From Phormidium tenue FACHB-1050 (lineage in GTDB: Bacteria; Cyanobacteriota; Cyanobacteriia; Pseudanabaenales; Pseudanabaenaceae), in contig NZ_JACJQY010000006.1 in NCBI RefSeq assembly GCF_014696925.1, positions 1-64,000 on the forward strand: DNA of 64,000 bases, given 5' to 3'. Positions 8,501 to 48,796 of the stretch are shown in pieces (the stretch's first letter is position 1; every line of letters starts with the position of its first letter). Both the position numbers and the translations under genes were made by a program. The notes beneath the pieces were generated by a model. The model ran no database searches, was not told the DNA's origin, and saw nothing but the letters and a program-made list of their open reading frames with translations.

Positions 8501-8718
8501 CAAATGATTGTGAGGGGGCGATCGCAAGAAACGGCAAGTTTGCGATTTGGACTAGGCTGATTGCTACAGTCACTTATCTACGCCATTTACTCACATCGGA
8601 TATTTCCCCTTATCACCCTCTGTACAAGCTCAAAAAACAGCTATCAGTCTTGTTTTTCAACTTCCAAGTCATATTCAATTCAAAATTATTCTTGACTTGC
8701 TCTCAGGTCATCCCGTAA
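5578..8718 (+). CDS. CyRepA1-like plasmid replication protein
   Basis: A 1046-aa protein with two parts. Residues about 125-290 form a DUF3854/Toprim-like domain, with FICEGMKKA (E172), CFDAE (about 225) and VDDFI (271). Residues about 330-700 form an SF1/SF2-type helicase with Walker A AKGTGKT (342-348), Walker B DLVIDE (422-427) and a late motif QALSRVRD. This architecture matches the cyanobacterial large-plasmid replication proteins called CyRepA1 (Slr7037 of pSYSA is the type). It probably binds the origin and unwinds or primes it. The last 80 residues are interrupted by a palindrome at 8471-8534 and look non-native, so the ancestral stop may have been displaced. Confidence 0.75.
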   Translation: MKSTTLDLHSFSDLVYREWIDGSAISPELFTANVEIIADEIIESGGEVNYPIHEALNWNPAKWRTVWQSGKQQRPELFGALIHSWNPILGKSEVFQVKLSNPLIDQKKGKPRKYENPAKRGQVGGFALVPNSIWQKVADRYGLEVDFSALPDSVNFWSWVAAHPEIPIFICEGMKKACCLLSQGYVAIALSGITMGRIQGADGKLALQPYLAKFAIPKRQVCFCFDAETKEKTKHDVFLATVKTGKLFADADCLVKVLELPLLEGTDKTGVDDFIVERGIDAFHQVYLAAISLNTYTWEHQQDCQLTFKPFKSLSMNVMFQLDRYEIPDYIPKTGIVALQSAKGTGKTKAIAAIVAGTDKLALLGHRVSLVRNLCKVMNADFKGDLDMADGQFITDSAYSARVGACVDSLLAFDPRQFVDCDLVIDEVEQVLRHLISGSTCNKDGKRSALLARLHILVKVARRVIVADADLSDISLNYLQALRGDGSDVFLIKNEYQTEGYPARFIVANNDVPIIQELLADVTKGHRVFVATDSKSSSKAIAKLVEKIRAIRPKIRVLLFNSDTSGGRHETDFMSNINKRVFNYDVIIATPSMSTGVSIEVKRFHKVYGLFYGTVTDADASQALSRVRDNVPRTVWCAERGINFCKIDRSSSPIHLKNTLRNRWDREVSLIRAGLGDSLLPIVDHASLDNPHIDLWASVEARTNAAMWALRDYLLERLVFEGNQVTVVMIGNDDSGKSIKEALAQTRQERYQAVSRAKILSPSEQKKLISNESQSYQDLLDLEKTAIAKFYCLDQVSPELVEYDRDGQRRSEILKLEALFQSDLVIESDVRAFTRQAKFGMGIFLPDQPCHELGRYIRSGLGLKELLNPDVQYTDADLEDLGSLCRQFATDIKRYLGFNVPQDATNIWIFRILCNQLGVKICSKRIHGDQGMINVCWLDADAWHQLQAILERRSASRQQVAVTQPVSCDRPPLITNDCEGAIARNGKFAIWTRLIATVTYLRHLLTSDISPYHPLYKLKKQLSVLFFNFQVIFNSKLFLTCSQVIP
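8471..8534. repeat. Perfect 21-bp inverted repeat containing HIP1
   Basis: Arms at 8471-8491 and 8514-8534 are exact reverse complements, each carrying TTGCGATCGCCCCC or its complement, around a 22-bp A+T-rich loop. The palindrome is translated as part of the replication protein's C-terminus. It resembles the short REP- or MITE-like palindromes scattered in cyanobacterial genomes and may be a recent insertion. Confidence 0.8.
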
Positions 8719-14032: not shown

Positions 14033-14440
14033 CTAGAAGTCATCATCGTAAATGGGCGATTCTTCATACTCTTCGTCTTCGGCAGACTTTCTCACAACAT
14101 CAATGAAGTTCAGAGATTGGGCATGAATTACTGTCCGCGCATGATGCTTCTTGTCTTTCTTGGACTTGTATTCTTCAGGCTGCGTCAGAACTCCCGTAAC
14201 TTCGACAAAGCGTCCAGATTCTGCTCGCTCTTCGGCATATTCCGCAGTTCCATTCCAGCAAACTACTTTTACCCAAAGCGGTTCTTGGTCGATCCAATTA
14301 CCATCTTTGTCGCGGCGAGGCTTAGGTTGTACGGCGAGGCTGAAGTCTAGTACATCTTTGCCGCTGGTTTTGGTTTGACGCAATTCAGATACATTACCGA
14401 CATAACCAGAGAGGACTACGAGATTAGTTGAATTACACAT
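14033..14440 (-). CDS. ssb: Single-stranded DNA-binding protein
   Basis: A 135-aa OB-fold protein. VVLSGYVGNVSELRQTKTSGK opens the fold, WVKVVCWNGTAEYAEER is the conserved central strand, and GRFVEVTGVL follows. The acidic tail ends in YDDDF, close to the usual DDDIPF tip that recruits replication and repair partners. The ATG at 14440 was chosen because GGAAGGA precedes it; the longer frame to 14500 has no such site. It probably coats plasmid single strands during replication or transfer and may work with the Sak4-like ATPase encoded at 18522-19694. Confidence 0.92.
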   Translation of the reverse strand: MCNSTNLVVLSGYVGNVSELRQTKTSGKDVLDFSLAVQPKPRRDKDGNWIDQEPLWVKVVCWNGTAEYAEERAESGRFVEVTGVLTQPEEYKSKKDKKHHARTVIHAQSLNFIDVVRKSAEDEEYEESPIYDDDF

Positions 14441-14500
14441 GAGTTTTTCCTTCCATTTAGGAATCAGGTCATGGACTTCTACGCGATAGCGTATCTTCAA

Positions 14501-29358: not shown

Positions 29359-32300
29359 TTAGAACAACCAAAGTTGTTCTATCTGTTCGTTTACATTCTT
29401 ATGCGGAATCACAAGTTGTTTACCTCCTCCTTCTAGAATTGTGAATTCAGACAATGGTCTGAATTCACAATTCGATTCTGGAACCGCCAAAAACTGATCG
29501 CCATTCACAGGCAGATCGAAATCGCCCAAAAGCTGCGCGAGTTCTTCAAGCCAGTTATCAGCGTCACCTGATACCCAATCCTCAAAATGTCTCTGCCTCA
29601 ATACTTCCACGATCGCTGCTGATGGTGGCTCTAGTGGAGCGGCACTGGAGTCTCTTTCCCAGAAGATTTCTCTAGATTCTTCCAACTCTTCTCCTTCTGC
29701 ACAGTTGTCAGCTATGCTATCGTCTACAGGAGATTCATGGGCGATCGCATCAAACATCTCCTTCAGGAATCCTAACCGATTTGATTTCTGCTCGTATTCC
29801 TGAGCTTGCTCAAAGGTTTGACTGACTCGATTCTGGAGAATTGGCAGTTCTTGTCTGTCTCTTTCCAGATTTTCTTGGGCTGTGGTTAGCTTGGCGGCGA
29901 TCGCATTTCTCACCACATGCAACAGTGAACTAAAGGGTTGCTGGCACTCTGCATTAAATTCATAGCCAGAACTAACGCTCATGCCAATATACCCATTAAC
30001 CTCTGAGCCAAATCTGCTCAGAAATACGTTCAGCCCTGCAAATTGTCCGATTTGGATTTGGGACAATCGGTAGCTTTCTTTGAGCCTTTGCACTTGTTCG
30101 GTAATGTGATGATCGATTAGCACGGCTTTGTCTAGCATCACGCCGCGATCGCTGATGAATTGTTTCAGGTTTGCTTGGGCGACTATGGCTAGGTCTGATT
30201 GAATGCGCTGAATGCTGGTGGGATGGTTGGTATTTACCATGTCAGTGAGGTACTGAATCTTGGATTTGTCCCTAAATTGCATATCGTTATAGGCTTGCAA
30301 TTGCATTCCTAGTCCTTGCAATTCGGCTTCGAGGGTGGCGCGTTCCATGATTAATGGATCTCCCGAAGCGATCGCTTTCATTTGGGCAGCATTAAGAACA
30401 GTCTCATCAATGTCTTCGATGGTGCGATGAGTGCGATCGCCCGACATCACCTGCGAAATCATCCGTTGCTTGTTCTCAATCGCTTGCCATAGAAACGAGT
30501 CAAATCCTGCTTGGTTATTTCTACCTTCAGTGACATAACGGAAGATGAAGACATCGCTCCATTCGTTACCCTGACGCACTCCTCTGCCTTCGCGTTGCTC
30601 GAGATCCGATGGTCGCCACGGACAATCGATATGGTGCAAGGCAATCAGTTTGCTTTGCATGTTCACACCTGTTCCCAATTTTGATGTCGAGCCAAAGACA
30701 ATCCTAATTTTGCCTTCGTTGATGGCTTCAAACAGTTTGGCTTTCCTAGTATCCGTGTCGTAATCATGGATAAAGGCAATCTGGTCAGCGGGTATGCCCA
30801 GCATCACTAAGGTGTCGCGGATATAGCAATAGCTATTCCACCTGTCTTTTTTGGGTGCATTGCGATCGCAAAAGATTGCTTGAGTGCCTTTGGCGATCGC
30901 GGTGATTGTCCAAATTTGCCACACATTCCAAGCACAGGCTAAGAGTTTGTTGTTAATCCATTCGCTTGCTTGAGGCGATACCAATTTGGTATGCATACAA
31001 GCTTTGGCTCCATCGCCTGTAATTTTTAACATGTTGTCAATTTCAGGTTTGACTTTACGTTTTGCGACAGCCTCAGCGCGATCGCAGAGTTTGTCCATAT
31101 AGACGATTTGCTCTGGTGATGGTTTGCAGGACATCACATGGTAATGGGGTTTCGGGGTCTTGACTTCGGCAAGGGCTGCGGTCTGGATATCGGTGACTTG
31201 ACACCACATCGCCATCAGTTCGGGCATGTTAACGAATTCGCGGAGGCGGGTTTTCGATTTCAGTTTGCCTGTGGGACTGATTTCTAAGGCGGTGCTGGTT
31301 TCACAGAATCTTGAGCAGAAGCTGTCGAAGTGAGTTAGTCCTTGCTGTTGCAGCAGGTCTAGTTGCAGATAGCGCATCCACACGTCCATTTCCGCCATGG
31401 TGTTGCTCAATGGTGTGCCTGTGGCAAAGATGACTCTTTTACCATTGGTGAGTAGGTATCGCACTTTCATGAAGGAGTCATGGGCGCGTTGGCTATAACC
31501 TGTGGGAATACCTGCAACATTGTGCTGGGTGGTCAGAATTTGCAGTCGTTTGATTTGCTGTACTTCATCTAGGAAAAGCGCATCAATACCCAGTTGCTCG
31601 AAGTAAATCACGCGGTCTTTGCGATCGCTAGTTTCGATTTCTTGGATTCGCAAGGAGATTTTCTTTCGCATGGCTTCTAAGTTGCGGAAGACTTGTTTGG
31701 ATTCTTCTTTGTTGGTGGCTTCACAGATGGAGATAATTGCGGACATTTGCTCTTCGAGAAACATCAGTTCGGTTGATTCGCTAATTTGCAGGTTGAAGAA
31801 TTGTTCATAGGTGAGAATGATTGCATCGTAGTTATGGGTGGCAATTTGGCTCAGTAGGACACGACGGCGATCTTTGGCAAAGTCTTGAGCATTCGGCACG
31901 AGAATTTTGGCTTCGGGATACAGTCGTCGAAATTCTTTGCTATATCCTGGCAGGATTGATTTCATGGTTACATGCATGACTTTGTGAGCCATGCCTTTGC
32001 GTTTTAGTTCCATGCCTGCGGCGATCATCGTGGCGGTTTTGCCATATCCCACCCGATGGGCGGCAAATGATGCTCTTTGTCGTTCGACTCGACGCACAAA
32101 GTTGCGCTGGTGGCTCCGCATCTCGAAGTCGGGAGCCATATTTGGGAATGTTAGGTGCGAGCCGTCATACACGGTATCGCGGTAGAGGTTGTGGTATTGG
32201 TTGTAGTACAGACAGAGTTGCTCAGCGCGATCGCCATCACTCCAAATCCATGCTTTGAAAGCGGTTTGGATTTTGTCTTGCATTGTCCGCGAAGCGGTGG

Positions 32301-33618
32301 TGGCTTCCACATTCAGAATGCTGATGACATTGCCATGCTTGTCTTGGATATGGTCATAGATCTTGGGGTCTTTTTGGTTGAGCGCGTGTTCTATCAATTC
32401 AAGGGCAGTGTGGTTAGGGGTTCCCCATTCGGTTTTGTTTTGGGGTGAGGTTGTCAGTTTGCTGTCGCCTTTGATTACCCAAATGTTGACTGGGTCGGGA
32501 TGGAATTTGACGGTGCTGGTTCCTGCATGGCTAAGCAGTTGTTCGCTGAATTCTTTGATGACATCTTCGGGGAGCCATGTCGTTCCGAGTTTGACGCGGA
32601 TCGTGTTGTGCAATAGTAGGTTTAGCTCGTTGGTGGTCATGCCATTGACGTTGATGCCGAGTTTGACGGCGCAGCGTACTTTGATGTCTACGTCTGGGGT
32701 TTCGGGTAAACAAGGCACTGGTTGGTTGCTGCTGATCGTTTGATAGTACTTGTCGATGTTCAGCCAGTTGGGGACTCCGCTTTCTTGCCATGCGATGATT
32801 TTGTTGAATCGGTTGACGACGTTGCCACTGATGAATTCTTCTCTGGTTATCCATTCGGCATTAGTGGTTTCATTCACTGTTGTGGGTGGGATTGTGCCGT
32901 TGTAGAAGATGTCGCCTTCTAATTCAGTGATGACATGGCTAATGCTTTTGTCGATCAGATTGGCGATCCAGTCCAGGTCGATATAGCTTTTGGCATCTAG
33001 GCATTGGGCTAGAGCATCTTTGGCGTTATCGGCACGATATCTTGGGGTTGCTCTGACTGTCCTTTGATGGAAGATGGGGGCTTTGGCGGGGCTTTTGCCT
33101 TTGCCTCGGTCAATCTCTAATGCTCTCAATCGATAGTAGTTGGGGTCTTCTTGGAAGATGCTGAGGTTCTCTTTGCTGGTGAAATGTCCGAATCTAATTG
33201 CGAACTCATCATATTTTTGATTGAGAATTTGGCGCAGTTTGGCTAGTTCTTTTTCGTCTTCGTACTGCTGCATTCTCAGCACTAGGTCGAGGATCTTGGC
33301 GACAGACATAGCGGCACGAATGCGTTGTTGTTGTTTTGCGACTAGTTCTAGCTGATAGTCGGTGCGACGATAGATTTGTCCTTCATGTTCGCAGAATGCA
33401 TTGGGTAGAACTTTTTGTAACTGTGGTGGAATCTGGATTATTTTGGTTTCAGTTACTGCTGGTTCATAGAATTTAGCGATCGCTTTCCCAATCTTGCTTA
33501 TCTCTGCTCTCAAGTCAAAGTTTGCTGGGGCAGTTACGCCTAAATGCTCTCCGCCGTATAGTTTTGAGACAGTTAGTTCGCCGAGAATATTGCGGAATTT
33601 GAATGGGGTTATAGACAT
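29359..33618 (-). CDS. Large SNF2-like DEAD/DEAH helicase
   Basis: A 1419-aa helicase. The N-terminal 500 residues are unrecognised. The ATPase part has HRVGYGKTATM near residue 525, LFLDEVQQI near 684, GTPLSNTMAE soon after, and the second lobe with GTGVNMQ near 982 and EQREGRGVRQGNE near 1008. A long coiled-coil region follows. This is the helicase half of the giant methylase-helicase proteins common on phages and plasmids (P1 DarB is one example). Here the methylase is a separate gene upstream. It probably translocates on plasmid DNA, in replication, protection from restriction or transcription. Confidence 0.82.
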   Translation of the reverse strand: MSITPFKFRNILGELTVSKLYGGEHLGVTAPANFDLRAEISKIGKAIAKFYEPAVTETKIIQIPPQLQKVLPNAFCEHEGQIYRRTDYQLELVAKQQQRIRAAMSVAKILDLVLRMQQYEDEKELAKLRQILNQKYDEFAIRFGHFTSKENLSIFQEDPNYYRLRALEIDRGKGKSPAKAPIFHQRTVRATPRYRADNAKDALAQCLDAKSYIDLDWIANLIDKSISHVITELEGDIFYNGTIPPTTVNETTNAEWITREEFISGNVVNRFNKIIAWQESGVPNWLNIDKYYQTISSNQPVPCLPETPDVDIKVRCAVKLGINVNGMTTNELNLLLHNTIRVKLGTTWLPEDVIKEFSEQLLSHAGTSTVKFHPDPVNIWVIKGDSKLTTSPQNKTEWGTPNHTALELIEHALNQKDPKIYDHIQDKHGNVISILNVEATTASRTMQDKIQTAFKAWIWSDGDRAEQLCLYYNQYHNLYRDTVYDGSHLTFPNMAPDFEMRSHQRNFVRRVERQRASFAAHRVGYGKTATMIAAGMELKRKGMAHKVMHVTMKSILPGYSKEFRRLYPEAKILVPNAQDFAKDRRRVLLSQIATHNYDAIILTYEQFFNLQISESTELMFLEEQMSAIISICEATNKEESKQVFRNLEAMRKKISLRIQEIETSDRKDRVIYFEQLGIDALFLDEVQQIKRLQILTTQHNVAGIPTGYSQRAHDSFMKVRYLLTNGKRVIFATGTPLSNTMAEMDVWMRYLQLDLLQQQGLTHFDSFCSRFCETSTALEISPTGKLKSKTRLREFVNMPELMAMWCQVTDIQTAALAEVKTPKPHYHVMSCKPSPEQIVYMDKLCDRAEAVAKRKVKPEIDNMLKITGDGAKACMHTKLVSPQASEWINNKLLACAWNVWQIWTITAIAKGTQAIFCDRNAPKKDRWNSYCYIRDTLVMLGIPADQIAFIHDYDTDTRKAKLFEAINEGKIRIVFGSTSKLGTGVNMQSKLIALHHIDCPWRPSDLEQREGRGVRQGNEWSDVFIFRYVTEGRNNQAGFDSFLWQAIENKQRMISQVMSGDRTHRTIEDIDETVLNAAQMKAIASGDPLIMERATLEAELQGLGMQLQAYNDMQFRDKSKIQYLTDMVNTNHPTSIQRIQSDLAIVAQANLKQFISDRGVMLDKAVLIDHHITEQVQRLKESYRLSQIQIGQFAGLNVFLSRFGSEVNGYIGMSVSSGYEFNAECQQPFSSLLHVVRNAIAAKLTTAQENLERDRQELPILQNRVSQTFEQAQEYEQKSNRLGFLKEMFDAIAHESPVDDSIADNCAEGEELEESREIFWERDSSAAPLEPPSAAIVEVLRQRHFEDWVSGDADNWLEELAQLLGDFDLPVNGDQFLAVPESNCEFRPLSEFTILEGGGKQLVIPHKNVNEQIEQLWLF

Positions 33619-33707: not shown

Positions 33708-34754
33708 CTAGGCTGACTCTACAAACCATTGGTTAATCATGATTGGCTCTTGATTAACTGTGTGTTTGCCTGATGGTGCTGTCTTTACCCAATCAGGATA
33801 TTTATAATTTCTTTGATTCGTGGCTCTCTGTTCTGTTTCTGTGAGTTTGCGGAAAATAAGGATATCGGCAACTACTTCGGTGTTGGCAAATCTCTTAAAA
33901 GCGATGTCTGGCAATCTAATGGCAGTCACTAGCTCTAATTTACTCGCTAGATATTTCCGAAAACTGGTATTGGCTGCATCAAGGGTGAAACAACTGGTAA
34001 TCATGGCTATCAACCCATTTTCCCTCACTAAATCTGTACATTTGGCTAGAAAGTAATTATGGATGCTTAGGTTCAGGTGGGCGTAGCGCGGATCGTAGAG
34101 TTTGTAATTGCCAAAGGGAACATTGCCGATCGCTAGGTCAAAACTGTTGTCACTTAGGCTCACTGTCTCAAATCCCTGTGCGTAAATCAGGGCTTCTGGA
34201 TATAGCAATCTCGCGATTTGGGCAAAGATTGGGTCTATTTCTATGCTGACCCATTGCGATCGCTCTCGCATCAACGTGGGCTGACATCCCATAAATGCTA
34301 GGGTGTTGCACGCTGGTTCGATGATCGCTCCTCCTGTAAAGCCGATATCGCTGAGAATATCCCACATGGCGCGGATTACTTCAAAGCTGGTTTGGTAGGC
34401 GGTTGCCGTTGCGGATTTGGCGGCTTGGATTTCGGCTTGGGTCAATAGTTGGCTCAGTTTTTCATGACATCGATACTGCCATGTGTTGCCTTGATGATTC
34501 GTTTTCACCCAGATATCGGTGAGTGTTCCCCATCCTGACGCTTTGGCGAGTTCTACCAGTTGTTCTGCTGTTGCTGATGATATTGATTTACTTAGGGCGA
34601 TCGCCTCGACGGTTGCTTCGGCTTTTACTCGCAGGGGGCTATCAAAATGCTGCTCAATTTCTGGCGTAATCTCAAATATTGGTTGGTACATTTTTGGCTT
34701 TTTCACTAGTTTTTGTTCTTGCGAACAAGCGCTAGCCAAAAATACATTAGTCAT
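33708..34754 (-). CDS. N6-adenine DNA methyltransferase-like protein
   Basis: A 348-aa protein with a SAM-binding motif I region, IIEPACNTLAFMG near residue 145, a following acidic strand end (SIEIDP) and motif IV written as GNVPFGNY near residue 210 instead of NPPF/Y. The family usually methylates adenine and is often joined to the large helicase in one polypeptide (DarB-like). Splitting it from the helicase, with a terminator in between, is unusual. The variant motif IV leaves catalytic activity uncertain. Confidence 0.75.
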   Translation of the reverse strand: MTNVFLASACSQEQKLVKKPKMYQPIFEITPEIEQHFDSPLRVKAEATVEAIALSKSISSATAEQLVELAKASGWGTLTDIWVKTNHQGNTWQYRCHEKLSQLLTQAEIQAAKSATATAYQTSFEVIRAMWDILSDIGFTGGAIIEPACNTLAFMGCQPTLMRERSQWVSIEIDPIFAQIARLLYPEALIYAQGFETVSLSDNSFDLAIGNVPFGNYKLYDPRYAHLNLSIHNYFLAKCTDLVRENGLIAMITSCFTLDAANTSFRKYLASKLELVTAIRLPDIAFKRFANTEVVADILIFRKLTETEQRATNQRNYKYPDWVKTAPSGKHTVNQEPIMINQWFVESA

Positions 34755-34823
34755 AATTCATTGTTGTTCTCACAGATGGTAAGCTGACCCCATAAGATCG
34801 TTACTAACCGCCAAGTGGATTTT

Positions 34824-35777: not shown

Positions 35778-35823
35778 AAAAGCAATACATCCTTGACCTA
35801 TAGCCTAAGGATGTATTGCTTTT
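35778..35823. terminator. Bidirectional terminator
   Basis: A 17-bp stem (AAAAGCAATACATCCTT arm) with a 12-base loop serves the convergent methyltransferase and RNA-polymerase-like genes and touches the stop codon of the latter. Confidence 0.85.
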
Positions 35824-38185
35824 ATGCAGCGACCAGTTCACAAACTATGGTCTTTTGATGTGTTTTCAGCGAAGCTGTGTATTCTCCAACTAATACTTTG
35901 GCGGAGTCTTTGGCGACTAGTCCCAGTAGGTATGGCTTTTTCCTGCTTTTACGGATGACTTCTATTTGATATCTGCCATCTGCTTGGCGTTGTGATACAA
36001 GGATGGGAATACAGGCGTGTTCTCCATTTCCTGTCCATTTGGTTGAGGCAAGTTCTCCATACTGTGCGCCTACTATTTGTAAGCGCATCAGTTGATTGTC
36101 ATGGAGGCGATCGCAGATTTCGGGCAGGAACATATTGAAGACAACGCTTGCCGTGCCATGATCGCCGTTGTGACTGGCTTGCCACATGGCGGCGGCACAG
36201 GTTTGCGCTGTCTGCTCGCTTTTGTTGCGTAGTTTCTCGCCTAGTCCTTTTGCCCACTGCACTGCTGCTCTCAAGATTTTCTTGCGGGATTCCCGATCGC
36301 TTGATAGTTTCATCGCTTCCCTAATCTTGCTGGTATATTCATCACGACGGGCGATCGCTCTTTTGTAGAGGGTTTCACTCGGTTTGATAAATAGTTCGCG
36401 GAATTCGAGTAGGGTACGTTCGTGTAAATCTACGGGTTGCCAGATCTCATTTACAGATTGAATCAATAAAGAAATTGCGTCGTTATATTCACCATTTACT
36501 TCCATTGGTCTAGCAGGCATTTTGCATCTTTGTTTAGCGTCGTAGTAGCTGCCATAGACTCCTTGACGCTTGCGGTCAATTAGCCAATCTAGTTTTGGTA
36601 GGCTTTTGCCCACTTCATCGAGAAAGGCTTGGTCGTGGCTAAGATCGGATTTGAGCCGATCTACAGCGACTTGGACTTCTTGGGCTAAGCCCGCAATGTA
36701 CTGATGGTTGCCTGTTGCCCATGCGGTGGCTAGGTAATAGGTAATCAGTCCAATTTGGTTTTCAGTAGATCTGAGAGCGACTTCGGCTAATGTGCCTTGC
36801 ACTGGCACTTTGTCGGGTTTGTAGGTGGTGGGCTTGATGTGGTGTTGACGGATTTCTTTGGCGATTTCTGGTAGTTTCTGAACTGATTTCACGCAGAAAG
36901 TATCACCATCAAAGTCCATGCCGCAATAGTCACGGGCGATATCTGGGTTGACATACATGGTTCCCTGTTGGTTGAGTCCTTTGATGTGTTTGTTTGTCCA
37001 AATCTGTAAGTCATTGCGATCGCGGATGGGATAGCGGAAGCCGACATATTCGCCTTCGGGCATTTCAGGGATGCACATTTCTAGTTCTCCTAGTTCGGGA
37101 TAGGGCTGCGCCATGAAGCTAGAGAAGTTAATACCGCCACTGGTGGCTAGGGTTAACCACCTTCTTCTTACTAAGTCTTCAATCTTTCGTACTACATAGG
37201 GATGTTCTAGCAGTTGTCCGTGAATGTCGTGTTTGAGGATCTCCGCGAGGATTTTGCCGTCGGCTTCTTCTTCGCGTTCTTCTTCAGGTTCATCTGTTTT
37301 CACCCACTGTTCGGTTTGGATCAGTTGGCAGAGTTGTTGAATGTTTGATTGGGCGGCGACGAGGGTTTCGGCTTTGAGTTTAGTAGTTGGCAAGACATCT
37401 TGGGCGATCGCTTGTTGACTAAACCATTGCCAGACGGTGTAGGAGGTCTTGACTCTACGTTTTTGGGCAAAGTTAACGATTCCAAGTTTCAGATTGGCGA
37501 GTTTGTGGATACCTAGTTTGGGCTTGTGTCCTTTGAAACATGATAGAGGCAGGATTAAGTCAATTCCTGCGGGACAGTTTAGGCTGAGTTGTAAGGTTCC
37601 TTTGGCAACCCATTGATGGGCAATTCCTGCTCGAAACTGGAAAGGGGTGTTGGCTGGGATCACAAAGTCTTGGCTTTGGCGCAGTTGGTTGAGAAATTCA
37701 TGGCTGATTTTACCGTGACAGTCATCAGTGCGATGCTCTTTGTCTTGGACGATCAGGATGTTTACTCGTTCGATGCTATAGATTTTCAGGCATTCGGTCA
37801 TGAGGATGGAGCCGTAGTTGATTTGTCCCATAGAGTTGGGGAAATAGGTGGCAAAGGGGTTGAGTCCTTGACTGAAGAAGAAGTCTCCATGTTTTCTCGC
37901 TCCCGATGCTCCTGCTAGTTGGTATTTGCCTAGTCCTTTCGTTAGGGCGGCGATCGCTTGTTTCTTTAGGGGTGCAATGCTTTTAGCGGCGGTGCTGCGC
38001 TTGCTGGCGGATTTGCTGGTTTTGGCGATGGTTTCGGCTTTGGCGATCTTTTGTAAGTAGCTGGAAATGTTGCCAATGCTGAGGTTAATGTCTGGATGCA
38101 GGACTTCAAGGAGGGTGTCCCGAAATTGGATCTCGTTATCGACGATCTCTCCTGTGGCGAGGTTGGTCTTGGCGATCGTTAGCAT
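35822..38185 (-). CDS. Divergent two-barrel RNA-polymerase-like protein
   Basis: A 787-aa protein. Motifs match, in order, the double-psi beta-barrel polymerases of the QDE-1/RDR/YonO group: PFQFRAG...KG (P181, R185, K195), LPLSCFKGHK (S215, K218), YVGFRYPIRD (R384, P386) and DYCGMDFDGDT with D424, D426 and D428. In known enzymes the three Asp bind the catalytic magnesium and the lysines contact nucleotides. A helical region after DFDGD (NQIGLITYYLATAWA) could be the bridge-helix part. The N-terminal 80 residues are K/A-rich. No primase or sigma motif was seen. A catalytically active RNA or DNA primer polymerase is inferred; inactivity cannot be excluded. Confidence 0.6.
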   Translation of the reverse strand: MLTIAKTNLATGEIVDNEIQFRDTLLEVLHPDINLSIGNISSYLQKIAKAETIAKTSKSASKRSTAAKSIAPLKKQAIAALTKGLGKYQLAGASGARKHGDFFFSQGLNPFATYFPNSMGQINYGSILMTECLKIYSIERVNILIVQDKEHRTDDCHGKISHEFLNQLRQSQDFVIPANTPFQFRAGIAHQWVAKGTLQLSLNCPAGIDLILPLSCFKGHKPKLGIHKLANLKLGIVNFAQKRRVKTSYTVWQWFSQQAIAQDVLPTTKLKAETLVAAQSNIQQLCQLIQTEQWVKTDEPEEEREEEADGKILAEILKHDIHGQLLEHPYVVRKIEDLVRRRWLTLATSGGINFSSFMAQPYPELGELEMCIPEMPEGEYVGFRYPIRDRNDLQIWTNKHIKGLNQQGTMYVNPDIARDYCGMDFDGDTFCVKSVQKLPEIAKEIRQHHIKPTTYKPDKVPVQGTLAEVALRSTENQIGLITYYLATAWATGNHQYIAGLAQEVQVAVDRLKSDLSHDQAFLDEVGKSLPKLDWLIDRKRQGVYGSYYDAKQRCKMPARPMEVNGEYNDAISLLIQSVNEIWQPVDLHERTLLEFRELFIKPSETLYKRAIARRDEYTSKIREAMKLSSDRESRKKILRAAVQWAKGLGEKLRNKSEQTAQTCAAAMWQASHNGDHGTASVVFNMFLPEICDRLHDNQLMRLQIVGAQYGELASTKWTGNGEHACIPILVSQRQADGRYQIEVIRKSRKKPYLLGLVAKDSAKVLVGEYTASLKTHQKTIVCELVAA

Positions 38186-38209
38186 TTATTTTTGTTCTCA
38201 AAGTAATTT

Positions 38210-38243
38210 AGCGACTAGATCCAACGATTTGGATCTAGTCGCT
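38210..38243 (-). terminator. Stem-loop before the 787-aa gene
   Basis: A 13-bp stem (AGCGACTAGATCC arm) with an eight-base loop lies downstream of the 146-aa gene and 25 bases before the ATG of the polymerase-like gene. Confidence 0.7.
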
Positions 38244-38266
38244 TTTGGTTATTAGGTGTTGATGGA

Positions 38267-38707
38267 CTAGGCTGCTTTCTTGTTCAGGTCTTGGCGATAC
38301 ACGACAAATCCATTCTTTTGCAGTTCGTCAATGGTGGTGGGCTTTGATGGCAGAAAGTTGATCTTGCCTTCTTTGGTTGCCAGAATCTTGCAGCCATAAT
38401 GATTCTGCAAGCGTTGAATCACTTTCTCAATTGGCAGGTTGATATTCGCCAAAGCCCATCCCTTCTTTGCTTGATACAGCCACATCTTGTCTGTGCTAAC
38501 TTGTGGTTTACGAGCTTTGGGTCTGCGGCTGGTTTCAACTACTGCATTGCTGGCTGCTACTGTCTTTTCCAGTTCCTTGACTGGGATTTGCGCGTTGATA
38601 TGGACAATCAAGGCTCTGGTGGTTACATGCAGTTCTGCTTGACTCAGCTTATCAATGATTTTATCGGCAAGTTCTTCAGGGGTATCGAATCTTAGTTGAC
38701 GAGCCAT
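38267..38707 (-). CDS. Hypothetical basic protein
   Basis: A 146-aa protein. ATG 38707 is supported by GGAG eight bases upstream. The first 50 residues are helical and hydrophobic, the middle is a K/R/P linker (SRRPKARKPQVS), and the C-terminus may be a small alpha-beta fold (VIQRLQNHYGCKILATKEG). No family was recognised. Its position among polymerase-like genes suggests an accessory DNA- or RNA-binding part. Confidence 0.5.
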   Translation of the reverse strand: MARQLRFDTPEELADKIIDKLSQAELHVTTRALIVHINAQIPVKELEKTVAASNAVVETSRRPKARKPQVSTDKMWLYQAKKGWALANINLPIEKVIQRLQNHYGCKILATKEGKINFLPSKPTTIDELQKNGFVVYRQDLNKKAA

Positions 38708-38778
38708 GTTTTTAGTCTCCTGATTTTAATTTTTGGTTGACAATCGCTCACGGACTTTACGCGCTAGCGTTCTTCTTG

Positions 38779-38823
38779 CTTGTCAATGTAGATTTCTTTT
38801 TGATAGATATCTACATTGACAAG
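38779..38823 (-). terminator. Stem-loop after the SAP-like gene
   Basis: A 15-bp stem (CTTGTCAATGTAGAT arm) with a 15-base loop, just downstream of the stop at 38838 on the minus strand. Confidence 0.65.
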
Positions 38824-38837
38824 ATTGCTATTTGAAA

Positions 38838-39254
38838 CTAGGCGGTTAGGTAGAAGAGCAATTCTTTCTTCTTCAGTTTTCGCCAGTTAGGGATTCTGCG
38901 TTCTTTGGCTAGGGGTCTTAGTTCTTGAACAGTCATTTTCGTGAGTGGCTTGGTAGCGACTTCGGCAATGATTTCAGTCTTTACTTCCTTTACCGTAGCT
39001 TTCAGTTTTGGTGCTGCTTTTGCTGATGGCAAAGATACTGTTGTATCTGGAAGTAATGGGTTCGTAGCTGTTAGATGCCTGACTGTGACTTCAGGTGTTT
39101 CTATCTGAGAAGTTAGCAGTGATTGAGCCGTGGGTTCAGCCCCTAGAAATGATAGTAGGGCATAGGTTAGTGCGGTCAATAATCCCAGTAATGCAATCAG
39201 ACTCACAGTCACAAGAGCTTCGACTGCAATCTTGAAAATTGATGGTGGCTTCAT
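38838..39254 (-). CDS. Membrane protein with Rho-N/SAP-like C-terminus
   Basis: A 138-aa protein from ATG 39254, chosen for its TTAGGA site rather than TTG 39287. A transmembrane helix covers about residues 10-37 (VSLIALLGLLTALTYALL). A P/T/K-rich linker leads to MTVQELRPLAKERRIPNW plus LKKKELLFYL at the end, the pattern of Rho N-terminal or SAP-like helix-extended-loop-helix nucleic-acid-binding domains. It may tether DNA or RNA to the membrane. Confidence 0.65.
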   Translation of the reverse strand: MKPPSIFKIAVEALVTVSLIALLGLLTALTYALLSFLGAEPTAQSLLTSQIETPEVTVRHLTATNPLLPDTTVSLPSAKAAPKLKATVKEVKTEIIAEVATKPLTKMTVQELRPLAKERRIPNWRKLKKKELLFYLTA

Positions 39255-39360
39255 AGTTTTTCCTAATAATTTGTTGATTTTCTTCAATACTTGTGTGGGA
39301 CTTGGTAAGTCAGATCTCTGTCAATTCACTCGAATTTAAGCGAGATAGCTAGACTGATGT

Positions 39361-39813
39361 TTAGTTCAATTCTCTTGCTGCATTTTTTTTAGAGAAGATC
39401 TGGGGATAGTCTTCGGACAGGGTTTCCAAATGACTTGTCGCAACTTCGCGGCAATGTTGCGGATCTGTGGTGTATTCGTTCATGGCGGCTTTGACGAAAT
39501 ACTCGGCATAGGTCAACATTTCCAAGATGCTCGGATCTACTTTTGAGATTTGGTCTGGATGTTGAGCGAGGTATTCTCCTAATTCCTGGACACTTTCTTG
39601 TACTGCATCTAGGAGTAAATCCTTGGTTTGGATTGTCCGCTTTGTGCCATCTCTGAAGGTCAGGAGTTTTGTGCCATTGCCAAAATCTGTTACTTTGGCT
39701 TGCATCGATTTGGCAAGATCTATTTGCTGTTTTGTGGTCTTCAGACATCTGGCTCTCGAACGATATACCTGCACCTGTGTCTTGCCTGTCATCGCGCCTA
39801 TTGCTATTTTCAC
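39361..39813 (-). CDS. Hypothetical protein
   Basis: A 150-aa helical protein. GTG 39813 has AGGA nine bases upstream; ATG 39792 is an alternative. A short beta segment, GTKLLTFRDGTKRTIQT, lies at about residues 47-63, and the rest is helical and acidic. No family was recognised. It lies between the 1493-aa polymerase-like gene and the membrane protein gene. Confidence 0.5.
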   Translation of the reverse strand: MKIAIGAMTGKTQVQVYRSRARCLKTTKQQIDLAKSMQAKVTDFGNGTKLLTFRDGTKRTIQTKDLLLDAVQESVQELGEYLAQHPDQISKVDPSILEMLTYAEYFVKAAMNEYTTDPQHCREVATSHLETLSEDYPQIFSKKNAARELN

Positions 39814-39908
39814 GGTAGTTATTCCTACTACGTCATTGGTCGCGGACTTTAAGCGTAAGCGCTCTTACTGTTTCTACATAAACAATGAATCTGGGCATAA
39901 TATCTGTG

Positions 39909-42900
39909 TTATCGGGACTCCTGATATTCCTTTTGACTCTCTGCGATTAACTGAAGAGCGCGATCGCAATTTTTGGCATCTCTCACGGTTACTTGGCTGT
40001 GCACGATCTCTAATCCCTGCTGTACCAGAAGTGGCGAATACTGGAATTTACCTTGGTTCAAGACTTTGGCATCCAATGTCAATGTATCGGTGTCCTGTTC
40101 CCATGTGGCTCGATATTTACCTTCGTTGCCCTTACGCTCAAATACAAGTTTGCCATCTTGTGATTCTACATAGTCGCTTTTGATTGCCAAGATTTCCCGC
40201 CATTGCGAGGCGACGTGCTGGCTTAATGTGTGATGATCCTTGTGCATTGCTTGCTGTGCTTTTTCGGTGATGCTCTCGCCTGCTATCAGCTCTTGAATTC
40301 GGTCTATATATTTCTCACTCTTGCCCAAATATTCTGCTATTCGGCTCCATTCCATTAGTTGCTGAATATCGGCAACGATGGTGTTATCAGCTTTGATAGG
40401 CTCTGTCGGAAATGGCATGATTTTTCCATTTACATAGTCTCCCAGTGGCTGAAAGTGCATTCCCCATGTGTTGCTATGTCCTTGAAATGTGTTCAGTTCC
40501 TTGGCGCTATGTTTTTCCATCTGCGACCATTGTTGTTGATAGGCTGCATCATTCAGCATTTCTGGGGTGATTTTGTACTGTTTACCCACCTGAAAAGCGA
40601 CTTTCTGCTCTCCTGCGATCGCGATCGCTATGTCGCCTTCTTTAAATCCATAGGCGGCATAGGGTTCATATCTCCGCGTCGTGTGACATCTGCCATGTCC
40701 ACGCATGGCTTCAATACAGGTGTTGACTGGCAAGGGATTGACTTCTCCATGCATCTTGAGGGGATAAACCATCTTGACGGGTTTTCCTGTGATTTTTACT
40801 GGCTGTTCTGAATCAAAATGACTACGCACTGATTCCCCCAGTTGTGATTCTATCTTTTCGAGGGGATTTGCATGAGTGCTGCTTTTCTGCATCTCCATGA
40901 GGCTTTCAGATTGAGTATTAGTTTCAGTCTGGACTGTAGTAGTGGGTGTAGTAAGTGCTTCTCGATCTCGCTCTGGATCGTACTTTACCCCCATAGCGGC
41001 GAGATTCTTCCAAGACATTTCAATTAAACTTGCTTTGATTGCCTGACCTTCGTAGAGATAGGTAATCCCATTAATCCTTCCTCCTGTCTGCACTTGCGCT
41101 TTTAGTCCCACGTTCTCATCAGCAAGCCTTTCCACAAATTCAGTCATGGTCGGTTGGTTTGCCGAGGCTTTGGCGATCGCCTCTTTTAATTGCGGCGCAA
41201 TGACATCGAGGTTAACGGCTTCTTTGATTCGCTCTGATGATAGTCCGTGCCATATTTCAGGCAGTTTGAACGTACTTCTATCGATCTCTAAGTCTGCGTC
41301 TTTCTTACTGGCGGAAATATGGATATTTGCGATGAACTGACTACCAATGGGCATATAGGCTGCGTCATTGTGGACAACGCCCATATTTTGCCATTGGTCG
41401 CCTGTCTGTACTTGAATTACTCTCTTGTCATAGATGGGACTTTGGGGATTGGTTTCGATTGTCATCCTGCAATTTAGGGCTTCATGGGGTTGCCATTGTT
41501 TATCTTTGAGTTCGTTAGTTTCATACTGCAAGCCAATTATTTTGATTTTTGCTACCTGTAGTTCTTGCAGTCGCTTGGCTACAACTTCCGTAAACATCTT
41601 GCCTGCGATCGCGCGGTTGTTGTTATGCCAGAGAGCGGCGGCACGTCGCTCTCGTTCGGTTTCTGGAATTGCATCGCGTTGGGTTTCTAGATATTTCTCA
41701 GCGGCGGCAAATTTGTCGTCAACATCATTTTTGGAGATTCCCAGTTGGAATTCTAGTTTCAGGTTGCCGAAGATTTTGTCCTTTTCGATGGTTTTACCAT
41801 AGGCGGCGATGGTGGCTGGGGAGATTAATCCCACGTCGATTTTATCGCGATCGATTAGGGCAACGGCTTTGTAGGGATATTGTTTTTCGGTCTTCCAGTC
41901 CTTATTCTTTGCCATCTGGATATCGACGGTTTCTCCTTTCCTTGTCATCTCCCAAATTGGCGACTCGCCATCAGGGTCGGTGCTTATCACGCTGACGATT
42001 TCGATTTTGTTGCCTTTTGCCGAGGTTGCGGTGAGGGCGATGCCTTCTTCATGCTCTAGACGACTACGACTGGCGGCGGCTTCGGAGATAAGCTTGTTGT
42101 AGTGCGTGGCGATCCCCTTTGCCCATTCGCTATCTGCGGTGGTATGGCTGTCTTTGGGGAAGATATGGTCAAAGCGATTGTAGTTGCGATCGCCAATCAA
42201 ACTATGTTCTTTGTAGATCTGGTTGGCTTGTTCCACCATCCAGCCTACGGGGTCTTGAGTATTGGTGTTGATGCCTTCAGCACTGATATAGGCATAGCTA
42301 TTGTCTTTGTCTTTAATCCACTCCACCTGTTTGTATTTGGCGACTTTTTGACAGAATTGAAATTCATCTTCATTGACTTTTCTGGCACTTTTGGGAGTAT
42401 CGACAGCGCGTTGTAAGTTCACGGCTGCGAGGCTTTCTAGATTCCACAACAGTCTCTCGGTTTTGGCTAAACCTTGGGCTACAGCATCTGCTTTTTCTGG
42501 TTCGGGTAGATTGGGGATGGTACTGGCGATTTGACTAATCTCGGTAATTTGGTCGCGCCATGCGTCATTGAGAATGCGAAAGGGTTTCTTAGGATCTTTG
42601 TCTTCGGCAAGTAGCTTTTGGAAGTGTTTGCCTATGTCCTGCAAGTATTCGCTGCTTTCAGATTCTGGGATATATTGGGTTTCCCATCGCAAGGCTTCTA
42701 GCCTCATGCCTAGATTCGCGACTCTTCCTGTGGGGTTATCGGCAGCATTCACCGCAGCACTGGCTAGGGTGGCAAATCCATTGGCAGCATCGCGGGGAAT
42801 CTTCTTTTCCTTTTCGACTTGAATTGGTTTATTCTCTGGCAGATTCTTGTCAATGATTTCTTGGATGAGGGTCGGATACTGCTCAATGATTTTCTGGGAA

Positions 42901-44390
42901 CTGGCTTGTTGTTCGGGTGTTAGTTGACTGGGAATGATCCCCACGCGATCGCCGTCAAAGTCGATCACCAGTCGTTTTGCGTCGTTGGGGTTGATGTAGC
43001 AGACTCCTTTCTGCCGATAGGCTTCGGGATCTAGTTCACGCAGAACTGTGAGGTTATTTGTGAATACGTCAAAGTTGGCAGCATTGGCGACGGGACTGCG
43101 ATAGATGGCAACTTCGGCCCCATCGGGTAGTCCTGTAAAACTGACTTCGCCTTCTTGCAGTTGGTTGTGGGGTTGAGCGATGCCACTAGGGACGTAAACG
43201 CCGCCTGTGGCTACTTCTTGCCATTCGCTTTGTAGGAATTCTCGCAAGCGTTTGGCGATGTCTTCCATTTCTAAGATCTGGCAATGACCGCCTTCAATTA
43301 GATCAGTTTTGAGGATGTCATACAGCCAATCTTGGTATTCTTCGTTAGGTGAGGCTACTGTCTCTCGGTCAATTTCATTGGCTGTTGTGTTTTCTTGTTG
43401 GCTTAATCCCAGTTCCAGAGCCAGTTCTGGCTCTATAATTTGTGTAATGTTAGCGCGATCTAATTCCGCCTCTTGTCTCTGCTGTTGGCGCTTTTCATGG
43501 CGTTCGATATACAGTTGGGCTACCTTGCGCGGATCGGATTGGGCTTCGGCGAGTCGTTCGGCTTTGATTTTCAGCTTTGGTAGTACATCTGCTTGCACTC
43601 CTTCGGGGAAGAAAACGAGAGCTTGAGTTCCTAGTTTTTGTTCGGTGAATCTGGCATCTTCTTTTCTTGACCAGAATAGGCTGACTTCGTGGAGGCCTGT
43701 GCTGGTGGTTTTGTTGTCGCCTTTGATGCTCGATTTGGCGATAATTCCATCGACTGCTAGGGCTTGGCAGAACAAGCTAGCTCGACATGTGCCTTTGATC
43801 ATACCCTGCCATTCAGGTACGGCGGCTCGATATTGAAATGGACGGTTTAGTTCGGCTTGCAGTTGGGTTGCTAGGTCTGGAGAGATCAGGCTATAGCAGT
43901 CGCCGAGTTTGCTGGCAATGAGTCCCATCGCTTTGTCGCTGATGGTGATGCCATTGCTCAGGGTAATAGTTTGCTTTCCCCAGTCGGCTTGGTAGGTTCC
44001 TGTATCTAGATTTTTATTCAGGGTTTCATCATCGATGACGAGGATTCTGGCTTGCTCTTTGAATATTGAGGTCTTGGCTTCGGAGACGGGCAAACTGCCA
44101 TAGGCGACGGCATCGCTATGATTGGTGAAGATTTCTTGGCTTACTTTTTCGGCGATGGCGCGATCGCCAAAATAAGCAGTTCTCCCATTAGCAAGAATTA
44201 GATACAGCCCTTGCTCTTGCAGTCGCTCTATGTCTCGCTCAGTGATGCCGTCGTACATCTTGCCAACGGCAAGTTTACTTGGCTCAACAATGTCTTTCCC
44301 GATCTTCAGTTCGAGGTAGCTATGCTCAATAGTTTTCGGAGGCAAGGGTAACTCTTGCCCTGTCTTCAGGTCAATCTGTCTAAATTCCAT
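39909..44390 (-). CDS. Giant RNA-polymerase-like protein, second copy
   Basis: A 1493-aa protein with the same motif series as the 787-aa protein: RPFQYRAAV...KG (R183-R188, K199-G200), SSIKGDNK (S221, K223), AIYRSPV (R431, P433) and LVIDFDGDRV (D477, D479, D481). NPTGRVANLGMRLEALR follows at the bridge-helix position. The extra 900 residues include long helical parts and, near 1240-1350, a small domain beginning TCIEAMRGHGRCHTTRRY that resembles ASCH/PUA-like folds. It is the largest gene of the leftward module and follows a 71-aa gene by 14 bp. Catalysis and template type are unproven. Confidence 0.58.
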   Translation of the reverse strand: MEFRQIDLKTGQELPLPPKTIEHSYLELKIGKDIVEPSKLAVGKMYDGITERDIERLQEQGLYLILANGRTAYFGDRAIAEKVSQEIFTNHSDAVAYGSLPVSEAKTSIFKEQARILVIDDETLNKNLDTGTYQADWGKQTITLSNGITISDKAMGLIASKLGDCYSLISPDLATQLQAELNRPFQYRAAVPEWQGMIKGTCRASLFCQALAVDGIIAKSSIKGDNKTTSTGLHEVSLFWSRKEDARFTEQKLGTQALVFFPEGVQADVLPKLKIKAERLAEAQSDPRKVAQLYIERHEKRQQQRQEAELDRANITQIIEPELALELGLSQQENTTANEIDRETVASPNEEYQDWLYDILKTDLIEGGHCQILEMEDIAKRLREFLQSEWQEVATGGVYVPSGIAQPHNQLQEGEVSFTGLPDGAEVAIYRSPVANAANFDVFTNNLTVLRELDPEAYRQKGVCYINPNDAKRLVIDFDGDRVGIIPSQLTPEQQASSQKIIEQYPTLIQEIIDKNLPENKPIQVEKEKKIPRDAANGFATLASAAVNAADNPTGRVANLGMRLEALRWETQYIPESESSEYLQDIGKHFQKLLAEDKDPKKPFRILNDAWRDQITEISQIASTIPNLPEPEKADAVAQGLAKTERLLWNLESLAAVNLQRAVDTPKSARKVNEDEFQFCQKVAKYKQVEWIKDKDNSYAYISAEGINTNTQDPVGWMVEQANQIYKEHSLIGDRNYNRFDHIFPKDSHTTADSEWAKGIATHYNKLISEAAASRSRLEHEEGIALTATSAKGNKIEIVSVISTDPDGESPIWEMTRKGETVDIQMAKNKDWKTEKQYPYKAVALIDRDKIDVGLISPATIAAYGKTIEKDKIFGNLKLEFQLGISKNDVDDKFAAAEKYLETQRDAIPETERERRAAALWHNNNRAIAGKMFTEVVAKRLQELQVAKIKIIGLQYETNELKDKQWQPHEALNCRMTIETNPQSPIYDKRVIQVQTGDQWQNMGVVHNDAAYMPIGSQFIANIHISASKKDADLEIDRSTFKLPEIWHGLSSERIKEAVNLDVIAPQLKEAIAKASANQPTMTEFVERLADENVGLKAQVQTGGRINGITYLYEGQAIKASLIEMSWKNLAAMGVKYDPERDREALTTPTTTVQTETNTQSESLMEMQKSSTHANPLEKIESQLGESVRSHFDSEQPVKITGKPVKMVYPLKMHGEVNPLPVNTCIEAMRGHGRCHTTRRYEPYAAYGFKEGDIAIAIAGEQKVAFQVGKQYKITPEMLNDAAYQQQWSQMEKHSAKELNTFQGHSNTWGMHFQPLGDYVNGKIMPFPTEPIKADNTIVADIQQLMEWSRIAEYLGKSEKYIDRIQELIAGESITEKAQQAMHKDHHTLSQHVASQWREILAIKSDYVESQDGKLVFERKGNEGKYRATWEQDTDTLTLDAKVLNQGKFQYSPLLVQQGLEIVHSQVTVRDAKNCDRALQLIAESQKEYQESR

Positions 44391-46318: not shown

Positions 46319-46402
46319 ATGACATTAAATTTGCGAGACTTGTCACAGCAGATCGAGAAAGCGATCGCCCGTGACAAGCAAACAGGAGGTCAACAAGCAT
46401 GA
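46319..46402 (+). CDS. 27-aa leader peptide coupled to the primase gene
   Basis: A short frame encodes MTLNLRDLSQQIEKAIAR, then DKQTGGQQA. Its TGA overlaps the ATG of the primase gene (ATGA), and the primase ribosome site AGGAGG lies inside its last codons. Translation of the leader would therefore pass ribosomes to the replication gene, like tap-repA coupling in IncFII plasmids. The peptide itself is helical and may have no function. Confidence 0.6.
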   Translation: MTLNLRDLSQQIEKAIARDKQTGGQQA

Positions 46403-48162: not shown

Positions 48163-48796
48163 TGGGTGTAGATACAGGAATCGTGGTGCGGTGCGGTTTT
48201 GAGAAACTATCCCGTAATCGGGTGAGTGCTCTCTGGATGGTGACAAGATTTATTTCTTATAGGATTTTGCTCTCGGTGATATTCCCATACTTTGATTAAG
48301 TCTGGTGATATCACTTCTGAGGCGATGTAACCAAACTATGGCTAACGTTTCCTAGTGGACTATTTTAGATAAAACAGTCCACTAGGCGATCTGTCAAAAA
48401 GTTGTCAAGACTGACTTTACCAAGTTTTCTATTGCATTAATTTAGATGAAACAGTCCACTAGTCTGTCTTTACCAATATCCCAACAAACCTTTGCTCTCT
48501 ATAGCTACCTCCTGTTAAGGTGCAGAAATAGCGAACGTAGATAATCCATGATCATCATTGCTCAGAATAATTTGAGTACAGCTTGAGTCCGTACTTATTG
48601 CACAATTTCTTTTCATCTTTATTTTAGATCTTCTTAAGCAAATTATCAAGATTCCAGTGAGAAATCTTATTTCAAGAATCTTGATTAATGATTCTTGAAA
48701 TAAGATTTCTAGTTGTACATATCTAGTAATGACTATCTGCTGAAGCTAATTTTCTCTGCTTGCCTAAAAAAGTAAGATTTGCTTGCAGTCTAAAGC
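48163..48796. other. Gene-free region with repeats
   Basis: No gene is seen. CCTAGTGGACT/AGTCCACTAGG forms a hairpin at 48351-48385, and TTTAGATRAAACAGTCCACTAG (in part) is repeated near 48440-48463. At 48659-48709 a long inverted repeat is built from TTTCAAGAATC/GATTCTTGAAA around a TTGATTAAT loop. From about 48570 the sequence is similar to 51080-51250, the start of the segmental duplication. Confidence 0.5.

Follow-up and report, generated by a model that had tools for sequence, protein, structure and literature searches.

Two predicted two-barrel RNA polymerases of unequal length encoded near each other on cyanobacterial plasmids

We analysed positions 1 to 64,000 of contig NZ_JACJQY010000006.1 of Phormidium tenue FACHB-1050 (hereafter the window, meaning the whole of this stretch), in which two open reading frames (ORFs) separated by 1.7 kb encode putative RNA polymerases of 787 and 1493 amino acids, here called the short and the long protein. 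The short protein carries, in order, PFQFR (Q183, R185), KG (K195), SCFKG (K218), FRYP (R384, P386) and DFDGD (424–428), while the long protein carries PFQYR (Q186), KG (K199), SSIKG (K223), YRSP (R431) and DFDGD (477–481). A sequence-only reading of the window had claimed that the two proteins share the same ordered motifs, and both the ORFs and the motif order were confirmed. BLASTP aligns the two proteins at E=6e-25 (residues 155–481 with 164–557) and finds a further matching stretch (664–767 with 917–1016). Judged from their sequences, the two ORFs are members of one family. The Pfam RdRP (RNA-dependent RNA polymerase) profile PF05183 matches residues 415–519 of the short protein at E=4.2e-5 and 22.9 bits, below the gathering cut-off of 23.8 bits. 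The long protein has no Pfam match of note, PF05183 included, and its last 373 residues likewise have none. The short protein strongly matches the unnamed PHROG 34895 (3.7e-52). Against phrog_8308, the YonO family, it reaches a weak E=0.057 and the long protein has no match, whereas YonO itself scores 1220 bits.

The family alignment, A2, was drawn from the loci of a genome-contig scan, two IMG/VR contigs and the window. ORFs shorter than 600 amino acids and open-ended ones were excluded, the rest were clustered into 42 representatives, and the C-terminal fragment L023 was removed, which left 41 members including both window proteins. Mean column identity is 19%. In short-protein numbering, Q183, K195, G196, S215, K218, D320, P386, N398, D424, D426, G427, D428, G479, Q505, V508, D509 and K512 are invariant in 41/41. 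R185 is Arg in 40/41 and Cys in L039, and R384 is Arg in 30/41, with all 11 exceptions falling within a clade of 880-aa proteins. Thus, the aspartates D424, D426 and D428 (D477, D479 and D481 in the long protein) and the KG lysines, whose conservation the sequence-only reading had asked to be examined, are conserved. Of the motif set it proposed, the Gln, the KG lysines and the Asp triad hold strictly, but the arginine of (F/Y)RxP does not. The bridge-helix-like Q..VD..K segment (short 505–512, long 660–667), which that reading had not mentioned, is also invariant in 41/41. Across all 93 polymerase ORFs of at least 580 aa, near-identical copies included, pattern matching found the bridge-like motif in 92, DxDGD in 91 and QxR..KG in 87. 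The DxDGD count used a narrower pattern, and its two misses are L023 and L016, which has DYDGD. The six incomplete rows are L016 (DYDGD and QHR), L014 (QHR), L077 (longer spacing), L033 (without its N-terminus), L039 (Cys replacing Arg) and the fragment L023. The ratio of nonsynonymous to synonymous substitution rates (dN/dS) of the short gene is 0.046–0.089 in 6/7 comparisons, dS being saturated in the seventh, and that of the long gene is 0.093–0.140 in 5/5. As estimated from these ratios, selection on both genes is purifying. The family members examined range from 732 aa to 2448 aa, and one of the 41 also matches N6_Mtase (7.8e-13).

The AlphaFold2 model of the short protein, based on the 41-sequence alignment, has a mean predicted local distance difference test score (pLDDT) of 86.7 and a predicted template modelling score (pTM) of 0.81. 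The AlphaFold model of residues 1–1120 of the long protein has values of 80.9 and 0.75, respectively. Both models align along both barrels with RDR2, QDE-1 and the Thermus-phage enzyme gp64, spanning residues 1–699 (short) and 1–945 (long). In Foldseek, the short model finds RDR2 (7eu1_M, E=9.3e-15) and QDE-1 (2j7n, E=2.3e-14) as its nearest solved structures, and the 18 PDB chains at E≤0.001 comprise RDR2, QDE-1, Thermus-phage RNA polymerases, a crAss-like polymerase and Pol IV chains. Similarly, the long model matches 19 chains at E≤0.001 (RDR2, QDE-1, Thermus-phage and crAss-like enzymes), among them maize RDR2 (7w82, E=1.7e-9). With VIA-align, the short model superposes on 7w82 with Z 24.1 (root-mean-square deviation (rmsd) 5.5, 602 residues aligned) and ties with this value on gp64 (8f72; Z 23.3, rmsd 5.0, 518 aligned); the long model superposes on 7w82 with Z 18.4 (rmsd 4.4, 589 aligned). 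Barrel 2 of the long protein (399–488) matches the designed double-psi barrel 7dww with Z 6.4 and rmsd 1.7 over 77 residues. In the short model, helices 478–490 and 494–509 follow barrel 2 with the invariant Q..VD..K in place; this segment may correspond to a bridge helix. By predicted fold, 20 viral proteins match at E≤0.001; the strongest match (E=6.7e-14) is a Podoviridae sp. protein that bears the name 'RNA dependent RNA polymerase'. Searched by sequence against the PDB, neither the short nor the long protein gave a relevant match, nor did profile A2. The predicted structures therefore display the two double-psi barrels that had been expected, with the expected resemblance to QDE-1, and resemble RDR2 as well.

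Collectively, the conservation and the predicted folds make it very probable that each gene codes for an RNA polymerase, in fold and in catalytic residues, whose single chain contains two double-psi barrels. In such enzymes, barrel 2 would hold the metal-binding DFDGD, the active cleft would take its Gln and two Lys from barrel 1, and the bridge-helix-like segment would follow barrel 2. Templated RNA synthesis with a metal at the Asp triad would be expected from membership of the family.

Placement of the proteins beside QDE-1/RDR and YonO, also put forward in the sequence-only reading, is supported by the fold matches, the invariant residues and a profile link to YonO. Published reports are cited here and below for the excerpts consulted. 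Bacillus phage SP-beta encodes YonO, a strictly DNA-dependent RNA polymerase without which 37/148 induced SP-beta genes remain silent (PMC5467207). Like the present proteins, YonO is a single chain encoded on a mobile element. When A2 was aligned with a five-member YonO-family alignment in hhalign (prob 88, E=3e-6, 467 columns, 11% identity), R.P, DFDGD, N..IG and VDxxK fell in register. A DNA-binding gene follows yonO, much as an HU-type gene lies beside the polymerase in one cyanobacterial clade, and in phage Perkons an HU gene follows the polymerase relative. In contrast, the barrel-1 Gln that is invariant in the cyanobacterial proteins is absent at the motif-aligned place in 5/5 YonO-family proteins, identity is low, the PHROG match of the short protein is weak, and the short protein has no match at E≤1e-3 in 50,697 phage records (tblastn).

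QDE-1 reportedly relies on the invariant Q736, K743 and K767 of its first barrel and on second-barrel aspartates that bind Mg (PMC1750930). Q183, K195 and K218 mirror these residues in order, with roughly similar spacing (12 and 23 versus 7 and 24; PMC1750930), and the Asp triad is shared. The RDR group, moreover, offers the nearest solved folds by Foldseek. PF05183 matches 12/41 members at E≤0.1 (best 9.5e-10), of which L094 (38.2 bits) and L069 (25.5 bits) pass the gathering cut-off. The present proteins differ from this group in being prokaryotic and plasmid-borne, in the sub-threshold Pfam score of the short protein and the lack of a match in the long, and in model alignments that begin only at about residue 371 of RDR2 and about 490 of QDE-1. 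The idea that the cyanobacterial family is uniquely near eukaryotic RdRPs was dropped because PF05183 also matches one of the five YonO-family phage proteins at 4.5e-19; therefore, the Pfam name is no proof of the template.

The non-virion RNA polymerases (nvRNAP) of Thermus phages, P23-45 gp64 and P74-26 gp62, share the single-chain two-barrel fold (8f72 also matches the long model, Z 16.5). P23-45 encodes gp64 together with the virion enzyme gp96 (vRNAP), and two unequal two-barrel RNA polymerases on one element occur in 'many' viral genomes of the same survey (PMC10770324). Unlike the present proteins, these enzymes belong to phages rather than plasmids, the gp64 chain has 595 residues, and gp96 lies within a 5,002-residue tail protein. 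The RNA polymerase of crAss-like phage phi14:2 (6vr4) likewise holds two barrels in one large chain (E=1.1e-5 short, 7.4e-5 long), but it is virion-packaged, its chain has 2166 residues, and the match is much weaker.

Table 1. Features of the window that bear on the two predicted polymerases, with positions in the window.
Feature	Position	Strand	Basis
Short two-barrel RNA polymerase (predicted), 787 aa	35822..38185	-	ORF, model and fold, Pfam RdRP
Short barrel 1 (residues ~182–246; Q183, K195, K218)	37448..37642	-	Model strands, conserved columns; boundaries approximate
Short barrel 2 (residues ~353–434)	36884..37129	-	Model strands; alignments from ~347 on to large RNA polymerase subunits
Short DFDGD triad (residues 424–428)	36902..36916	-	Sequence motif, alignment
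Short bridge-helix-like segment (residues 505–514)	36644..36673	-	Invariant Q505 V508 D509 K512; role by analogy
Long two-barrel RNA polymerase (predicted), 1493 aa	39909..44390	-	ORF, homology to short, fold of 1–1120, purifying selection
Long barrel 1 (double-psi beta-barrel DPBB1, residues ~185–252; Q186, K199, K223)	43635..43838	-	DSSP strands of model, invariant columns; boundaries approximate
Long barrel 2 (DPBB2, residues ~399–487)	42930..43196	-	Model strands; 399–488 match to designed double-psi barrels
Long DFDGD metal-binding triad (predicted, residues 477–481)	42948..42962	-	Sequence motif, alignment
Long bridge-helix-like segment (residues 660–669, Q..VD..KS)	42384..42413	-	Invariant Q660 V663 D664 K667; role by analogy
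150-aa protein between the polymerases	39361..39813	-	Relatives in 11/88 loci, all Pseudanabaena-type (family 15)
149-aa protein, C-terminal Rho_N domain	38838..39287	-	Pfam Rho_N 7e-7; relatives in 12/88 loci (family 10)
146-aa protein adjoining the short polymerase	38267..38707	-	Relatives in 13/88 loci (family 7); no Pfam match
N6-adenine DNA methylase (DarB-like methylase part)	33708..34754	-	Pfam/PHROG scans
DarB-like / SNF2-type helicase	29359..33618	-	phrog_10089 1.4e-247
Single-stranded DNA-binding protein (SSB)	14033..14500	-	99% identical to annotated SSB of ABRG53b
CyRepA1-type plasmid replication protein	5578..8718	+	95% identical to annotated CyRepA1 of pPg_04

The polymerase genes lie in a mostly co-directional block that runs leftward from 44390 to 9569, with plus-strand interruptions at 34815–35720, 25422–29204 and 15227–18208 (Table 1). 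The complete plasmids ABRG53a and ABRG53b keep the order from the long gene through the 150-aa, Rho_N and 146-aa proteins to the short gene, the N6-methylase and the DarB-like helicase, although ABRG53a and some other loci have additional genes inserted. Further on in the window, genes for DUF6744, MoxR ATPase, VWA, AAA, SSB, JAB and ThiF proteins follow in the same direction, and after ThiF the CyRepA1 replication gene stands on the opposite strand, as in ABRG53b. The ORF at 13485–13922, tested as a candidate SSB gene, is not one. The interruption at 15227–18208 (+) encodes a NACHT-type STAND NTPase inserted against the block direction. In the 880-aa clade, an HU-type gene (Pfam identifies it in one representative, the annotation in a second) is next on the same strand in 13/17 loci, and a 453-aa family precedes the polymerase in 15/17.

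Plasmid records matching by tblastn numbered 69 for the short protein and 92 for the long. Among the 60 matches listed for each, all name cyanobacteria, and nearly all matches are annotated 'hypothetical protein'; the exceptions are 'ribonuclease H' in two Gloeothece records, unannotated places, and neighbouring genes under joined matches. The genome-contig scan, which used one short peptide pattern from cyanobacterial sequences, gave 183 confirmed relatives, from which 77 loci were kept; their titles name cyanobacteria. The profile was run on cyanobacterial genomes, and neither search is evidence of absence from other phyla. Relatives were found in 40/386 sampled cyanobacterial genomes, and 2 IMG/VR viral contigs carry family members. 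Some contigs have matches past position 3 million, which suggests a chromosomal location for a few copies. A Planktothrix-type member found no match below E=2 in the phage records, and a neighbouring gene had no match there. A PF05183 search of 20 genomes near the source genome was also silent, yet 14 control genomes were equally so, and this search is uninformative. Wherever a Pseudanabaena plasmid record contains a close short gene, a close long gene is present too (5/5), and contigs C56 and C67 of the source genome each carry their own pair. In addition, stretches at C36:1968–2132 and C80:5660–5767 of the source genome, 80–86% identical to parts of the short polymerase, are likely remnants.

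In a tree of the 41 members, the short protein groups with the 880-aa Planktothrix/Anabaena type and both viral-contig members. The long protein falls in a 12-row clade (mostly 1035–1939 aa; Shimodaira–Hasegawa-like approximate likelihood ratio (SH-aLRT) 94) beside a 14-row Nostoc-type clade. The short-side and long-side lineages are split with SH-aLRT 99; the tree has long branches, and exact placements are not claimed. A local duplication giving both genes, tested with four rows held together in a quick tree, was rejected by the approximately unbiased test (p-AU 7.7e-6; log-likelihood 63 worse). On this phylogenetic evidence, the short and long genes are a deeply diverged pair of old lineages rather than recent local paralogs. 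The sequence-only reading had called two unequal paralogs close together unusual. Unequal and close they are, but they are not local paralogs, and phage P23-45 provides a precedent.

In ABRG53b, mobC and the relaxase gene lie past CyRepA1, DUF6753 and MobD. Relaxase homologues in the source genome sit at contig ends (C56 170184–171188 of 171283, partial; C67 157116–158456 of 158456), and window position 1 therefore probably adjoins mobC and the origin of transfer (oriT), provided that the contig is circular, as we assumed; the polymerase block is thus directed at the presumed oriT. The ORF at 61946–63499, considered as a relaxase gene, was refuted by comparison with the MOBP relaxase of the sister plasmid ABRG53a, whose homologue stands at the far contig end; next to this ORF is an 1800-aa FtsK-type ATPase gene (56586–61988, -). 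On MOBP plasmids, genes on the relaxase strand are readable from the transferred strand (here with a presumed oriT). We compared strands in the 16 records present in both the relaxase listing (60 of 596 records) and the polymerase listings, together with two source-genome contigs. Polymerase genes lie on the relaxase strand in 25/25 cases over 18/18 replicons; replicons within each group are related by descent, so these are not 25 independent cases. The polymerase genes lie upstream of the relaxase gene in 7/7 Pseudanabaena replicons, at 31–64 kb, and downstream in the 11/11 others, at 6–31 kb. In two of these 11 that were opened, 16/23 (pGLO7428.02) and 6/16 (p057_B) of the genes between relaxase and polymerase are on the other strand. 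Outside this count, pCHRO.01 has another annotated relaxase gene, which a same-strand polymerase gene follows at a distance of about 0.8 kb downstream. A survey of plasmid leading regions reports that the transferred strand encodes every one of the SSB, methylase and anti-defence families enriched there (PMC11541004). With the position of oriT presumed, the gene layout in Pseudanabaena would be that of a leading region, and the layout in the other clade would not.

It is generally assumed that the host RNA polymerase transcribes plasmid genes. The explanation we favour overall, and consider reasonably likely, is that the two proteins are plasmid-encoded, DNA-templated RNA polymerases for plasmid genes. 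The enzymes would transcribe plasmid gene sets from plasmid DNA, either without the host polymerase or before it acts, in the manner of YonO in SP-beta, and the long and short enzymes may each have their own gene sets or stages, like the two enzymes of phage P23-45. That plasmid DNA is the template, that plasmid gene sets are the targets and that long and short divide the labour is, taken jointly, slightly better than an even call. Several points weigh against this explanation. Polymerase activity is a prediction only. Foldseek E-values rank RDR2 and QDE-1, which use RNA (QDE-1 also DNA), before the DNA-dependent Thermus-phage enzymes, although Z by VIA-align ties, and the YonO profile link is moderate. 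The pair is not always intact, with incomplete copies in 2/5 Pseudanabaena records: the pPg_04 long gene matches residues 1–1067 only, and the NZ_CP112875 short gene 233–787 only. Moreover, FACHB-723 L030 is split after residue 415, and some rows of the 386-genome sample contain stops. Finally, exact-word counts, a weak test, found no plasmid-specific promoter motif among 86 upstream regions (48 in 84 of 171 kb of C56 and 38 in 60 of 158 kb of C67). The only word standing out beyond AT-rich ones was GCGATCGC, which we take to be the common cyanobacterial HIP1 word.

The enzymes might instead be primases or replication RNA polymerases, which make RNA primers on plasmid single strands during replication or after transfer rather than transcribing genes. 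Their block includes SSB and stops close to the CyRepA1 gene, yet the plasmids have this dedicated replication protein, and two unequal enzymes exceed the need of a primase. A C-terminal RNase H domain, as would suit primer removal, is clear in the 2448-aa Gloeothece member (L013:7995–15338, E=2e-29), but it is marginal in L082 (0.0011) and the same scan finds none in YonO, L084 or L014. Relatives of ParA occur in 9/88 loci and of ParB in 6/88, which agrees with a replication role; the relatives on bacterial elements described in the excerpts consulted, YonO and P23-45 gp64 and gp96, are transcriptases (PMC5467207, PMC10770324). On balance, we consider priming unlikely.

A true RNA-dependent RNA polymerase that makes double-stranded RNA, for example in silencing or defence, is the account to which the top Foldseek matches, the PF05183 matches in 12/41 members and the QDE-1-like barrel-1 Gln, kept in 41/41 and missing from the YonO family, all point. 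However, PF05183 reaches into the YonO family as well, and the DNA-dependent Thermus-phage enzymes tie with RDR2 by Z. The alignment to RDR2 starts at its residue 371 and leaves the N-terminal RNA-recognition region outside the match, an absence that is itself no proof. A Piwi-domain (Argonaute) gene is present in the source genome (C1:139216–140037, -; 733-aa open frame, E=1.3e-13), on a contig unlinked to the polymerases. This account appears rather improbable. A degenerate or structural homologue without polymerase activity, to which truncated or split copies might point, is highly improbable given catalytic residues invariant in 41/41 and low dN/dS.

A bolder version of plasmid-directed transcription, which we regard as doubtful, is that the pair forms an early transcription system acting on the plasmid single strand that enters in conjugation, before second-strand synthesis. 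Whether already present in the donor or synthesised first in the recipient, the enzymes would activate the genes for SSB, the DNA methylase and the DarB-like anti-restriction protein. These three genes share one side of the relaxase gene with the polymerase genes in Pseudanabaena plasmids, and the block is readable from the presumed transferred strand. Leading-region expression is attributed to host RNA polymerase at Frpo promoters, and no plasmid RNA polymerase is named in the excerpt consulted (PMC11541004). If the bolder version were true, the plasmid pair would do the job otherwise given to host RNA polymerase at these hairpin promoters.

If the favoured DNA-templated role holds, the plasmid may make its own RNA rather than depend wholly on the host. 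More broadly, the family of predicted RNA polymerases on cyanobacterial plasmids, hypothetical in nearly all examined records, combines YonO-like and RDR-like features. It may open a way to study the origin of RNA-silencing polymerases from mobile-element enzymes, and it suggests how plasmids could express genes on arrival in a new cell. Cyanobacterial YonO-like proteins, which may or may not belong to the present family, are already mentioned in the literature. In the openly licensed literature, judged by titles and abstract openings, we found no description of a plasmid-borne polymerase pair in cyanobacteria. The excerpt consulted of the Pseudanabaena galeata CCNP1313 genome paper mentions no such enzyme (PMC11356792); 3/5 plasmids of this strain carry the pair.

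Other features of the window were also recorded. AT-rich iteron-like and imperfect longer repeats at 48663–52013 beside a ParA gene (51840–52601) mark a probable partition region. A 587-aa protein without a Pfam match (46399–48162, +) has motifs that presumably recall archaeo-eukaryotic primases. A protein kinase gene beside a GmrSD_N-type gene (54271–56527, -) is a possible defence pair, and repeated elements with a hairpin-forming stretch occur at 2561–2892 in two copies about 230 bp apart.

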